Assembly: GCF_014280235.1 (NCBI RefSeq)
Contig: NZ_CP047940.1
Location: 1,612,001 to 1,676,000 of the forward strand
DNA: 64,000 nucleotides
Reading direction: 5' to 3'
Source: Cyanobium sp. NS01
Lineage (GTDB): Bacteria > Cyanobacteriota > Cyanobacteriia > PCC-6307 > Cyanobiaceae
Shown here: piece by piece, positions 35,374 through 40,870 of the stretch
How the letters are laid out: every line of letters begins with the position of its first letter
Position numbering within the stretch: the first letter of the stretch is position 1
Made by a program: the position numbers and the translations under genes
The notes under the pieces: model-generated
Told to the model about the DNA's origin: nothing
Seen by the model: the letters and a program-made list of their open reading frames with translations, nothing else
The model's database searches: none

Positions 35374-36585
35374 TCATCGACCAAGGCGTGCCGCGGCCCG
35401 CTCGAAGGCGTCATCTACAACGTCGTCACCACACCACTTGCTGTAGGCCGCCAGGTGCGTTTCGACGCTATGGCCCATGGCGGCAGCGGCCACCTTCGGC
35501 GGCAGTTCGCAGATCAGGTGGGCGCGGTGGGCGTAGCCATGCCGGGCGGAATAGAGGACCAGCTTCTCCCCTTCTGCCTCGTACTGCTGCCGCAGATCCT
35601 GCCAGTGCCGGCGCCGGCGCATGTACAGACCCAGATCCTCGGCGCCGTAGCCCGGCCGCATCGGCGGTAGTGGCTGGGCTTTGAACTGTTCCAACAGCTC
35701 CCAGGCCTCAGCCCAGTCATCGCAGGGCAGCAGCCGCAGCGGTCTCGGCTTTGTCGCTCCTCGGCTGGTGTTCTTGCGGTAGTTGCACCACAGGCGGCCG
35801 CCGCGCAGCTGAAGGTGTTGCAGCTCCTCTGGTCTGAGGCCATAAGCCGCCAGCAACTGGAATGCGAGGCGCCAACGGGCATCCGGAATGGCCTCCACCA
35901 ACTCCAGGATGTGCTTCACCTCGATCGGGGTGGTGATCGACCGACCCTCCCGCTTGCGGCCCACAAAGGGGTCGAGATCCAGAGGTGGGGCCCATTCCAC
36001 AGCCAGAGCGCCGTTATCGACCCCCCATCGCAGCAGCGCCGCGGTCTGCTGCACCTGCATCTGCCGGCCACGGGAGCCAGGCTGATCAGACCAGCGAGCC
36101 GTCACTGCTTCCAGCAGTTCCCGGGGATTGGTTGGTGCTTTCTTGCTGGCGAGGATGGCCAGCAGTTCTGCCATTCGGCGCTGATAAACGGCGGCCCAGG
36201 TCCGGGGCTTGATGGCTCCGCTGCTCAGCTTTCGGGCTTTGAATCGCTCAACCAGCTCAGGCCAATCGATAGGGCCAGCATCCGGATCAGCTGTTGGCTC
36301 ACCGATGGCCAGTGCGGCTGCAATGGCCCGATCGAGTGAAAGTCCCTCGCTATGGGCAGCGTGGATCGCCAGAACCGTCTCTCGGATCGCATCGGCCTGG
36401 TCATGGGCCCATTCGATGGGCAACAGAACCTGATGACGACCGCCGGCGCCATCGACCGTGAGGCGCGTACGCCCTCGCAGATCGGAAACGCGCCAGCCGC
36501 TGCTCGTGCCTCGCTGGGTGAGGGAGAGGCGCAGGCCGGAGCGGAGCACAGAAGCCCAGGCATCTGAGGCTCTAGAAGCTCCCAT
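35374..36585 (-). CDS. Tyrosine-type integrase
   Basis: A 403-residue site-specific recombinase. The N-terminal part holds an arm/core-binding region (about 105-200, WPELVERFKARKLSSGAIKP). The catalytic domain shows R251 in AYGLRPEELQHL, H349/R354 in SARHGYAHRAHL, H372 in MGHSVETHL and the nucleophile Y381 in AAYSKW. It integrates and excises a mobile element at a tRNA gene. A 3' half of tRNA-Pro lies 165 bases upstream of its start, so this end of the element is at hand. Three 12-bp direct repeats overlap its start codon. It ends near the mobile mystery gene pair. Confidence 0.9.
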   Translation of the reverse strand: MGASRASDAWASVLRSGLRLSLTQRGTSSGWRVSDLRGRTRLTVDGAGGRHQVLLPIEWAHDQADAIRETVLAIHAAHSEGLSLDRAIAAALAIGEPTADPDAGPIDWPELVERFKARKLSSGAIKPRTWAAVYQRRMAELLAILASKKAPTNPRELLEAVTARWSDQPGSRGRQMQVQQTAALLRWGVDNGALAVEWAPPLDLDPFVGRKREGRSITTPIEVKHILELVEAIPDARWRLAFQLLAAYGLRPEELQHLQLRGGRLWCNYRKNTSRGATKPRPLRLLPCDDWAEAWELLEQFKAQPLPPMRPGYGAEDLGLYMRRRRHWQDLRQQYEAEGEKLVLYSARHGYAHRAHLICELPPKVAAAAMGHSVETHLAAYSKWCGDDVVDDAFERAAARLGR

Positions 36586-36619
36586 GTGAGCAAATATGTG
36601 AGCAAATATGTGAGCAAAT
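36584..36619. repeat. Three perfect 12-bp direct repeats at integrase start
   Basis: ATGTGAGCAAAT occurs three times head to tail (36584-36595, 36596-36607, 36608-36619). The first copy overlaps the integrase start codon at 36585-36583. They could be binding sites of the integrase arm domain, of an excisionase or of a repressor. Confidence 0.85.
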
Positions 36620-36749: not shown

Positions 36750-36791
36750 TTTGGGAGCACTAGGTCGCAGGTTCGAATCCTGTCGCCCCGA
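36750..36791 (+). other. tRNA-Pro(TGG) 3' fragment, probable att site
   Basis: The sequence from TTTGGGA (anticodon loop with TGG) through GCACT (3' anticodon stem) and GGTCGCAGGTTCGAATCCTG to TCGCCCCGA is the 3' half of a tRNA-Pro: the T-stem pairs GCAGG/CCTGT, and the acceptor strand CGCCCCG and discriminator A are present. No 5' half precedes it (the bases before do not pair with GCACT, and no CGGGGCG is found about 35 bases upstream). Integration into the tRNA 3' end typically leaves this. With the integrase alongside, it marks an element boundary. Confidence 0.8.
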
Positions 36792-36898
36792 TTGATTGTT
36801 CAGCGGTTGGGCCCACCCCGGTGGCACAGGGGCTGGACAGAAGTCCCGCCACCTGACTGGGGGCTTACCGGCAAAGGAATGGAGATCCGAAACCGGCC

Positions 36899-37006: not shown

Positions 37007-37425
37007 CATCCGGAGAAGACCACAGCCACCGCCCTTCCTTGCGCGGTCCGCGCCCGCGGCGGCCGCTGCTGGCGTTGCCGGCGCTGCTGCTGGCCTGGAC
37101 GGCACTGCAGCTGGGCCGTTCAGCCCTGGCCTCCCCCATCAACATGATCTGCTCGTTAGCGCCGTCCTCGGTGGGGGGCCTGGGGACCCTCGTTGATTTC
37201 AACCTCCGCGAAGGCTCTGCCAGTGGTTCGTCGTTCTGGCCGCTCAGCGGCCAGCGCCGAACAGTGCAGGCCAGGGTTGGCAGTGGACAGATTCAAATCC
37301 TGCAGCCCGGCAGCCAAGTGGTGCTGTTCAGCATCGATCGCCTCAGCGGCAGAATCGCCACCCCAGCCGGTGAGCAGGGACGCTGCACGAACGCCGGCTA
37401 CGTGCGGGTGGATCGGGCCATTTAG
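37003..37425 (+). CDS. Hypothetical secreted protein
   Basis: A 140-residue protein. The basic N-terminus and hydrophobic stretch (RRPLLALPALLLAWTALQLG) form a signal peptide or anchor. The mature part looks beta-rich with two Cys (NMICSLAPSSVGG, GRCTNAGYVRV). I choose the ATG at 37003, coupled to the small upstream frame, though the frame is open from 36967. Just right of the att fragment, it may belong to the flanking chromosome or to another insertion. No family recognised. Confidence 0.55.
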   Translation: MTSGEDHSHRPSLRGPRPRRPLLALPALLLAWTALQLGRSALASPINMICSLAPSSVGGLGTLVDFNLREGSASGSSFWPLSGQRRTVQARVGSGQIQILQPGSQVVLFSIDRLSGRIATPAGEQGRCTNAGYVRVDRAI

Positions 37426-37561
37426 AAGCGTGCCGCTCAAGGGCTGGCGCAAGCCGGTCCGCGGCAGGAGATGGGACACCTGGGGCATTGGTTTCTGTGA
37501 GCGCTGCGGCCGGCCCTTGACGCTGGCCGCGCTGGCGCTTGCGGTCCTGCGCTTGCCACCC

Positions 37562-38557
37562 GTGGCTGTTGTTTCCACATCACGATCCACCACCACACCG
37601 AAAGGCACTCCCGGCCCCAAGCTCTCGCCAGAAGAGAAGCTGGTGGCCTCCCTGGTCGCCCTGCTGGAGGCGGGCACCACCCCCTGGCGGCGCGAGTGGG
37701 ATGCCGCCGCTGGCGGGCACCACGTGAATCTGCTCTCCGGCCGTCGCTACCGCGGTGCCAATCCGGTGCTGCTCACCCTGGGCATGCATCTGCGGGCTTC
37801 AGCGCTGCCCTATTGGTGCGGCTTTGCCGAAGCCAAGGCGCTGGGGATCTTCCCCCGCAAGGGGAGCAAAGCCGTGCACGTGCTGCGGCCCCAGGTGCAT
37901 CAGCGGGGAGAAGGCCAGCTGGCCGAGGCTGATCCGGCCGATGCGGCTGGCCGCCGCTGGGTGAGCTACCGGCCGGTGGCGGTCTTCAATGCCGCCGATC
38001 TGGAGGGCGAGGCGCTGGAGGGGCTCCTCCAGAAGCGCCGCCAGGCCGAGGGGGTGATCCAGCGGCCCGAGCCCGAGCGGCTGGCGGCGGCTGAGACCGT
38101 CCTCAGCCGCTGGCCGGTGCCGGTGCGCCATGGCGGCGATCGGGCCTGCTATCTGCCGGGGCCGGATCGCATCCAGCTGCCGGATCGCTCGGCCTTCCAT
38201 TCAGCGGCGGCCCTCTATGCCACCTGGGCCCATGAGGCGATCCACTCCTCCGGCCACAGCTCCCGGCTGGCCCGGGATCTCTCCGGCGGCATGGGCGAGG
38301 GCGGCGATGGCGGCAGGGCCTATGCCCGTGAGGAGCTGGTGGCCGAGCTGGGGGCGGTGCTGCTGGGCGATCGGCTCGAGATCGGCAGTGCCATGGCCAA
38401 TCACGCCGCCTATCTGGGCCACTGGGTCGAGCTGCTGCGCGAATCGCCCCGGGTGCTGCTGCAGGTGCTCAGCGATGCCAGGAAGGCCGCCGATCTGATC
38501 TGCCCCGAGGGGTCAGAAGTGCCCAGCCCCACGACGCTTCAGCGGATAAGGCCCTGA
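37562..38557 (+). CDS. ArdC-like antirestriction / zincin-like protein
   Basis: A protein of about 331 residues. The N-terminal ArdC-type domain binds single-stranded DNA (LVASLVALLEAGTTPWRREW, NLLSGRRYRGANPVLLTLGM, YWCGFAEAKALGIFPRKGSK, YRPVAVFNAADLEG). A metallopeptidase-like domain follows with HEAIHSSGHSSRLARDL (HExxH) and AYAREELVAELGAVLLGDRL. Such proteins are carried by plasmids and integrative elements and protect incoming DNA from restriction. The start is uncertain: I take the GTG at 37562 because the preceding part is not like the family. It stands alone on the plus strand. Confidence 0.82.
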   Translation: MAVVSTSRSTTTPKGTPGPKLSPEEKLVASLVALLEAGTTPWRREWDAAAGGHHVNLLSGRRYRGANPVLLTLGMHLRASALPYWCGFAEAKALGIFPRKGSKAVHVLRPQVHQRGEGQLAEADPADAAGRRWVSYRPVAVFNAADLEGEALEGLLQKRRQAEGVIQRPEPERLAAAETVLSRWPVPVRHGGDRACYLPGPDRIQLPDRSAFHSAAALYATWAHEAIHSSGHSSRLARDLSGGMGEGGDGGRAYAREELVAELGAVLLGDRLEIGSAMANHAAYLGHWVELLRESPRVLLQVLSDARKAADLICPEGSEVPSPTTLQRIRP

Positions 38558-38681: not shown

Positions 38682-38695
38682 AATGCACATGCATT
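38682..38695. promoter_or_regulatory. Inverted repeat, candidate toxin-antitoxin operator
   Basis: AATGCA-CA-TGCATT is a perfect 6-bp inverted repeat 29 bases before the antitoxin start. AbrB-type antitoxins such as PrlF bind short palindromes in their own promoter. Confidence 0.45.
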
Positions 38696-38956
38696 CCCGT
38701 TAAGGAGCAACCGTTGGGTCTCCAATGGCCGCTCTCTCTTCTCCCACTGTTGAAGCCTCGAGCGTGGGCTCACCACCGGAGGAGGTGGAATCGGCCCTGA
38801 CGGATCGCTATCAGACCACCGTGCCGAAGCCGGTGCGCAAGGCCCTTGGGCTTCGCAAGCGCGACCGGATCCGCTACGCCTTTCGCTCCAATGGTGAGGT
38901 GGTGCTGACGTGACCCCCTTTATCGGTCCAGGGCTTATGAGAGTGGGTGGTTGTGG

Positions 38957-39855
38957 TCATGCTGCAGCTCCCTGTTGAGCTGCCTCCAGGGGCGTACGCC
39001 CCTGGAGGGCCGAGTGCGGCCTGAGTGAGTTGTACTCCCAGCGCCAACGATCGGCCAGGATCTGCGCCTCGGGGGCTGTTGTGAACAGCTCGGTGTTGAG
39101 GAACTCATCCCGGAACCGGCCGTTGAACGACTCGGCGAATCCGTTCTCCCACGGGGATCCTGGCTCGATGTAGGCCGTGCTGGTAGTGCTGCTGGCCTCG
39201 CACCAGTCCCGTAGGGCCTGGGCAATGAACTCCGGCCCGTTGTCCGATCGGATGTACGCCGGTGCTGGGTAGAGGCTGGTGAGTTCCTCCAGCACGGCCA
39301 CCACGTCCTTGGCCTTGCAGCGCCTGCCCACCCGGATCGCCAGGCAGAGGCGGCTGTGCTCATCGATCACGTTCAGGAACTTGAGCCTGCGCCCATCAGC
39401 GGTGGCGTCGAACTGGAAGTCCATGGCCCACACCTGGTGGGGATGCTCAGCCCGATGACGCCGCACCGAGCCGTCCGCGGGCCGTGCCCGCTTTCGCTTC
39501 CTGGGAGTGGGCCGCTGCAGCCCCTCCTCGCGCCAGAGCCGTTGCACCCGTTTGTGGTTCACGGTCCAGCCCTCCCGCCGCAGCAGGCGGTAGGCCATCC
39601 GGCGGCCCCAACGGATGTGGTCCGCGGCGATCTCGCGGAGACGCTGCCGGAGCTTGGCCTCCTCGATCGAGACGACCTTGCCGCCATGGCGCTGGGTGCT
39701 GCGGTGCTGGCCCACCACCCGGCAGGCCAGGCGTTCAGAGGCCCGGTAACGCTCCTGCAGGACCGTGACGGCCCTGCGGCGACGCTCCGGGCTCAGAAGT
39801 TTCCCTCGGCGAGGTCCTTGAGCATGGCCTTCTCCAACTCTGCTTCCGCCAAAAG
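38957..39855 (-). CDS. IS3-family transposase OrfB (DDE integrase)
   Basis: OrfB of the IS, fused to OrfA by frameshifting. Its unique part starts after the slippery site at 39805-39799. It shows an HTH_21-like region ([20 protein letters not shown]) and the rve integrase core: first Asp in [20 protein letters not shown], second Asp in [11 protein letters not shown], the Glu in [16 protein letters not shown], ending [20 protein letters not shown]. It cuts and joins the IS ends. The domain is complete and has no stop. It shares the 5' reading frame with the OrfA overlap, so I give only approximate upstream limits. Confidence 0.88.
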
Positions 39856-40071
39856 CTTCTTGAGCCGGGCGTTCTCCTTCTCCAGCTGGGTCAGCCGTCT
39901 GGCCTCCTCGGCCTGCATGCCCCCGTACTGCTGCCTCCAGCGGTGGTAGGTCGGTTGCGTCACCTCGATGACGCGGCAGACGTCGGCGACGGTTTTTCCC
40001 TGGGCGATCAACTGCTCGGCCGTCTTGAGCTTGCGGATGATCTGCTCGGCTGTGTGCCTGGTGCGTTTCAT
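39793..40071 (-). CDS. IS3-family transposase OrfA
   Basis: A 92-residue OrfA starting [20 protein letters not shown]. It has the HTH of the transposase_8 family ([20 protein letters not shown]) and a leucine-zipper coiled coil ([20 protein letters not shown]). Its end carries the heptamer G-GGA-AAC (39805-39799), followed four codons later by its stop, which is ideal for a programmed -1 shift into OrfB. The frame is open further upstream, but MKRTRHT is the usual start. Confidence 0.88.
39799..39805 (-). promoter_or_regulatory. Slippery heptamer for -1 frameshifting
   Basis: On the minus strand the sequence reads GGGAAAC, split G-GGA-AAC in OrfA and GGG-AAA-C in OrfB. It lies in the overlap between the two frames, as in IS3-type frameshift signals that yield the OrfAB fusion transposase. 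Confidence 0.7.
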
Positions 40072-40366
40072 GGTCGAGTCCCCGGCCCAGTTTGGCCGGC
40101 TGAAGACTCTCATTCACCCTGGACCGGTTTCCGGGGTCCACATCAGTGCTGCAGCGCGTCAGCCCGGCGGTAGAAGTCGACGATCCGGCGTTGGCCCCCT
40201 TTCTGGCCCTGCTGAAGCAGGACATCAGCCAGCATCCAGAGCGCTTGCGGCCCATCACCGCTGATCTGGTCAGCCGCTTGCAGGATCTGGTGGGTGCCAT
40301 CGATGTAGACATCGATCAAGTGCTTCCCGACGACGACGACATCGCCAGCGACGAGCCCGCCTGACG

Positions 40367-40870
40367 GTGGGCACCGCTGCAGGATCGCCCGCGGTGATCA
40401 ACGGGTGGAGGGTCTATGCGCACCCGTTGTTTCTCGATCAGCTGGAGTCGTTGCTCGCAGATGTGGAGAAGCTACGCCGCAAAGACCCGCCGGGATACGG
40501 CAGCAAGAACGCCAGCAACCGCCTTGCGGCCATCGCCCGCCTGATGCTCCAGAACATTCCCCGGGATCCCAGCCGCAAGGAGTACCAGCAGGGATCCACG
40601 CTCGGGGCTGAGCATCGCCACTGGCGACGGGCCAGGTTCTTTCAGCAATACCACTTGTTCTTCCATTTTCACACCCGCTCACGGCTGATCGTGCTGGGCT
40701 GGGTGAACGACACCGGCACCAAACGCGCCTACGGCAGCAAGACCGATGCCTATCAGGTGTTCCAGTCCATGCTGACCAGCGGCCATCCGCCAGATGACTG
40801 GGAGGAGCTCTTGCAAGAAGCGGGGCAGGCCACCGGGGGTTTGCAGCAACTCACGGATCAGCTGCCTTGA
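40367..40870 (+). CDS. yhaV: YhaV-family toxin (RNase)
   Basis: A 167-residue YhaV-type toxin: INGWRVYAHPLFLDQLESLL, IARLMLQNIPRDPSRKEYQQ, RHWRRARFFQQYHLFFHFHT and LIVLGWVNDTGTKRAYGSKT are in family order and complete. YhaV is a ribosome-dependent RNase of type II toxin-antitoxin systems. It starts with GTG two bases after the antitoxin stop. The toxin frame is intact although its antitoxin gene is interrupted by an IS, so either expression is lost (the promoter is cut off), the C-terminal half antitoxin still binds, or another antitoxin acts. Confidence 0.88.
   Translation: MGTAAGSPAVINGWRVYAHPLFLDQLESLLADVEKLRRKDPPGYGSKNASNRLAAIARLMLQNIPRDPSRKEYQQGSTLGAEHRHWRRARFFQQYHLFFHFHTRSRLIVLGWVNDTGTKRAYGSKTDAYQVFQSMLTSGHPPDDWEELLQEAGQATGGLQQLTDQLP

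Follow-up and report, generated by a model that had tools for sequence, protein, structure and literature searches.

The window analysed here, a stretch of 64,000 nucleotides from Cyanobium sp. NS01, contains a PrlF-YhaV type II toxin-antitoxin module in which the antitoxin gene is split by an insertion sequence (IS). The antitoxin precedes the toxin on the same strand, with both halves of the PrlF family match (PF15937) located directly before the YhaV family match (PF11663). The 5' half of prlF (38725..38913, + strand) consists of approximately 60 native codons followed by codons and a TGA stop from the IS end. It encodes the AbrB-type DNA-binding region with the last strand truncated, and it matches positions 1-41 of the PF15937 profile with an E-value of 1.9e-14. 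The 3' half (40146..40364, + strand) is an open frame of 72 codons that matches positions 45-99 of the same profile (E 6.6e-16) and presumably represents the toxin-binding part. The frame is thus interrupted after about codon 60, and the antitoxin is no longer a single protein with AbrB and toxin-binding parts. The toxin gene yhaV (40367..40870, + strand) encodes a product of 167 amino acids, which covers 137 of the 138 positions in PF11663 (E 3.9e-54).

The host genome is a complete chromosome of 2.75 Mb, and the set to which it was compared contains one genome per species. The nearest named relatives at the locus are Synechococcus and Cyanobium strains. An uninterrupted prlF gene, in which a single frame runs through NGEVVLQRVS, was identified in about two dozen relatives (e.g., L014, L054, L055). 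These genes agree with a preliminary description of the locus, according to which the two flanks of the element rejoin into one PrlF frame, and which had proposed a search of close relatives for the unbroken prlF-yhaV arrangement. We also looked for the same interruption in relatives, and for flanks that fail to rejoin, and found neither.

A search of the whole genome, also proposed there for prlF, recovered no second PrlF or YhaV protein. Two weak AbrB hits (L011, L012) were rejected as a second PrlF, since they match the N-terminal domain only; L011 adjoins a frame that by eye is similar to MazF/PemK. Among the other genomes, several genes located upstream of yhaV (L041, L043, L045, L050, L107-L109) contain only the C-terminal part of PrlF, fused to an unrelated N-terminus that is not of the AbrB type. 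The operator palindrome described below is missing from these loci, and the genes possibly code for antitoxins in which the DNA-binding part has been swapped.

The inserted element and the operator region

The element is 1240 bp long (38906..40145), with its transposase genes on the minus strand. Its ends, TGACGTGACCCCC.../...GGGGTCCACATCA, set the limits at exactly 38906-40145, and it is flanked by a perfect 4-bp duplication of the target site, GTGC, at 38902..38905 and 40146..40149 (both + strand). The right copy of the duplication provides the C-terminal fragment of prlF with a possible GTG start codon. The terminal inverted repeats have arms of 33 nt that are 76% complementary. The first gene, orfA (39793..40113, - strand), encodes 106 amino acids with an HTH_Tnp_1 domain (PF01527), and the orfB frame (38957..39811, - strand), which ends at 38957 and has an approximate 5' limit, encodes the integrase core (PF00665 and PF13683). 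A slippery GGGAAAC is located at 39805-39799, ahead of the orfA stop, and would fit a -1 frameshift from orfA into orfB, as for other members of the IS3 family. Together with the match to the IS3 transposase model (transpos_IS3, NF033516; E 5.5e-67), these features assign the element to the IS3 family, with which it shares the orfA/orfB organization with GGGAAAC, the DDE integrase core, the imperfect terminal repeats of the TG...CA type and the 4-bp duplications at all full copies. We found nothing unusual for that family, and no ISfinder name was assigned to the element. A perfect palindrome of 26 nt, CCTCCAGGGGCGTACGCCCCTGGAGG, is located near the left end of the element (38983-39008) and is also present in the other copies.

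Upstream of prlF, the palindrome AATGCACATGCATT (38682..38695, + strand) is intact and represents the sole match to this motif in the 2.75-Mb genome. Of 60 distinct intact prlF genes, 48 have the motif upstream and most of the others have a near-match; it is also present 71 bp upstream of prlF in E. coli K-12. In all likelihood AATGCACATGCATT represents the operator of PrlF. It is followed by a C only in the window, and by an A or a G in every relative that bears the motif. The palindrome AATGCNNNNGCATT is common to the upstream regions of prlF from E. coli to the cyanobacteria (window 38682-38695; L085:2432-2445), and is likely to be an ancient operator of PrlF.

The gene directly upstream of the module (37193-38557, + strand) codes for an anti-restriction protein of the ArdC type, with an ArdcN domain and a zincin-like peptidase domain. 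Further upstream, a fragment similar to the 3'-end of a tRNA (gggagcactaggtcgcaggttcgaatcctgtcgcccc) was observed at 36753-36792, where ARAGORN identified no whole tRNA. Beside it is a gene that by eye resembles a tyrosine recombinase (35374-36585, - strand) and has no match in Pfam; the fragment and this gene possibly mark the edge of an integrated island. Next to the recombinase-like gene, at 36584-36619, a 12-nt unit (atgtgagcaaat, with close variants) occurs three times head to tail.

Substitutions at conserved positions in YhaV

The toxin had previously been described as complete, which holds for its reading frame and for its coverage of the family profile. It does not hold for the residues, as the window YhaV has lost the basic amino acids at several near-invariant positions. 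Compared to close relatives, the protein is changed at K51, K90, R96 and R100, and it also carries the substitutions R130Q and R158G. In a wider set of 56 YhaV homologues, including YhaV from E. coli, 28 columns are near-invariant (at least 95% conserved). The window sequence departs from the consensus at four of these columns (K51N, K90R, R96H, R100H), more than any other sequence: 36 of the 56 homologues have no departure, 16 have one, two have two and two have three. All four departures fall on the six basic columns among the 28 (hypergeometric P = 0.0007, in a post hoc test made after the substitutions had been seen). In the wider set, K90 and R100 are invariant, K51 is conserved in 55 and R96 in 54 of the 56 sequences, and neither K90R nor R100H occurs in any of them. 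The basic residues R88 and R120 are retained in the window protein, and R130 is variable in the wider set. The four changed residues correspond to K47, K87, R94 and R98 in E. coli YhaV.

We compared the window protein to proteins with known structures. An AlphaFold model built from an alignment of 38 sequences (pLDDT 89.8; a model from 13 sequences gave 64) has a fold of the RelE type (BECR). The best Foldseek matches in the PDB were PfiT, RelE and HigB/HigB2, with a probability of 1.00 to RelE and PfiT chains and E-values of 0.005-0.03; a search of the PDB by sequence recovered no solved relative of YhaV. In the model, residues 90, 96 and 100 are placed on two successive strands of the sheet (87-91 and 95-102). 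A weak hhalign alignment (E 0.14) places K52, K54 and R61 of RelE opposite R88, R90 and H96 of the window protein, and is consistent with the strand pattern in the model. In RelE, R61 is catalytic and the R61A mutant cleaves with much lower efficiency, while K52A and K54A show no marked drop (PMC2807027). According to a review, the activity of E. coli YhaV is abolished by replacement of two conserved arginines, the positions of which are not given (PMC5408214). In addition, the double change of R96H and R100H was not observed in any of the compared relatives with a full-length PrlF. We infer from the conservation pattern that the substitutions in the window protein would abolish the toxicity of YhaV.

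Several observations speak against this conclusion. Histidine can serve in the active sites of RNases, and R96H (L064) and R96Q (L098) are both found in relatives that have a PrlF gene, so that R96H alone may be tolerated. K90R is a conservative replacement, and the K54A change in its RelE counterpart barely matters (PMC2807027). The retention of R88 and R120 and the variability of R130 point the same way. Finally, the toxin frame is open and the ratio of private replacement to silent changes is ordinary (0.31 for the window yhaV versus 0.30 for L055), and there is thus no clear sign of free drift. We rejected a reading of relaxed selection from this ratio, since the value for the window is not distinctive.

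Order of events and alternative explanations

The preliminary description had posed a puzzle: a cell with an intact toxin and a broken antitoxin must have silenced the toxin, rescued itself with half an antitoxin or acquired another antitoxin. Its premise of an intact toxin finds no support, given the loss of the near-invariant basic residues K51, K90, R96 and R100; a toxin that lacks them would need neither silencing nor a rescuing fragment. The account that we favor, and consider likely, is that of a module in decay, in which the toxin was weakened, the antitoxin became expendable and was then split by the IS. The YhaV protein with its RelE fold would first have lost its RNase activity, in whole or in part, through substitutions at conserved basic positions, above all R96H and R100H. 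With a weakened toxin, the PrlF antitoxin would no longer have been essential, and the cell could then have survived the transposition of a resident IS3-family copy into prlF, past about codon 60.

The order of these events was examined by comparison to the sister copies of the element. Five further full copies are present in the same genome, each with a 4-bp target duplication (ACTT, GCGC, CCCC, ATCA, AGCA). The insertion in the window and its GTGC duplication lie at precisely the bases proposed earlier. One of the sister copies (L006/L007; G000:C1:274700-276011) is 1312 bp long owing to an internal tandem duplication of 72 bp, with intact ends and the AGCA duplication. The window copy differs from the sister copies at 3 of 1240 sites. 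The same three sites separate it from four of the five sister copies; the fifth shares two of the differences, while the third site sits at the margin of its duplicated segment. None of the three differences alters the products of orfA and orfB. In elements from other genomes that are 80-92% identical, the window base is the commonest at all three sites, clearly so at the third. Because the sister copies share the differences and the window copy mostly has the commoner state, the window copy lies outside the newest transposition burst, yet hardly any changes are private to it. The earlier view of a recent insertion can be kept in so far as the perfect duplication and the few substitutions indicate that the insertion is young; by the comparison of copies it does not belong to the latest transpositions in this genome.

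With no more than three differences in the whole element, most of the changes in the toxin are probably older than the insertion. If the two were of equal age, six conserved-site changes in 501 bp of the toxin gene would have to be set against 0-3 changes in 1240 bp of the IS (P 0.0006-0.02; 0.007-0.11 if four toxin changes are counted), though so few changes are compared in this dating, and gene conversion among the copies of the element may have obscured it. A single detoxifying change could have been fixed quickly after the insertion, four to six hardly, which makes the order with the toxin first the simplest.

Alternatively, YhaV could be active in principle and hardly produced, with the IS blocking transcription from the prlF promoter. 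The sole presumed operator and promoter region is located 1.7 kb upstream, behind an element with genes that run in the opposite direction, and a change of the nucleotide that directly follows the operator occurs in the window only. A scan with the sigma-70 consensus revealed no outward promoter at the right IS end or at the junction, which fits with a silent toxin gene. Such silencing would nevertheless have had to be immediate and complete at the insertion, and it leaves the clustering of changes on conserved basic positions unexplained; we consider it unlikely.

The absence of a promoter-like site at the junction also bears on a second alternative, in which the toxin is active and neutralized by the C-terminal fragment of 72 amino acids, translated from the GTG made by the duplication, with DNA binding left to a separate protein. 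The C-terminal half is open and matches the profile in full over positions 45-99, the GTG is located exactly at the IS junction, and in six of the relatives mentioned above (L041, L043, L050, L107-L109) the only part of PrlF that is kept directly before yhaV is the C-terminal one, from which it follows that this part can probably act without an AbrB domain. Against this, the GTG is preceded by no more than a weak GGGG, and a toxin short of conserved basic residues makes rescue unnecessary, so that a functional fragment is, on balance, quite unlikely.

It is very unlikely that YhaV has been kept under selection for a use other than RNase activity, such as binding to RNA or to the ribosome. The 167 codons without a stop or frameshift, the replacement-to-silent ratio of 0.31, which is similar to that of some intact relatives, and the confident fold model would all be in line with such a use, but a gene lately freed from selection would look alike, and no conserved lineage with this variant of YhaV was found. 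Least credible of all is a two-piece system, in which a truncated AbrB repressor on the PrlF operator and a separate half-antitoxin together restrain a weakened YhaV.

We also compared the interrupted module to known systems. Like PrlF-YhaV (SohA-YhaV) of E. coli K-12, it has the antitoxin before the toxin, both Pfam families and the AATGCNNNNGCATT palindrome upstream; it differs in that the antitoxin is cut by an IS and the toxin lacks four near-invariant basic residues. In E. coli, breakage of the module looks rare, as a single site holds at least 80% of prlF-yhaV in 5107 of 5426 surveyed genomes. In evolving populations of E. coli, yhaV has been lost through insertion sequences and small deletions (PMC5960147); here too the module was broken by insertion sequences, but in those populations the toxin gene was hit and the antitoxin kept, whereas in the window the antitoxin was hit and the toxin carries point changes. 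An allele of the prlF1 type in E. coli has a duplication of 7 bp, 272 bp into prlF (PMC7686311). It likewise alters the antitoxin and leaves the toxin gene in place; in contrast to the window, only the C-terminal end of the antitoxin is altered and the effect of YhaV on the cell is visible. In the open-licence papers that we searched, no IS-split antitoxin beside a mutated toxin was found.

Insertion of IS elements into toxin-antitoxin genes is already known, and the locus is probably one more ordinary example of a module in decay, instructive for the sequence in which its parts were lost. Under the account favored here, it would serve as a worked case of how a chromosomal toxin-antitoxin module dies, the toxin first and the antitoxin after. 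It also advises caution over "orphan toxins", since an open frame, taken by itself, can belong to a dead enzyme. Finally, the pattern of residues marks K47, K87, R94 and R98 in E. coli YhaV as basic positions of possible catalytic role.
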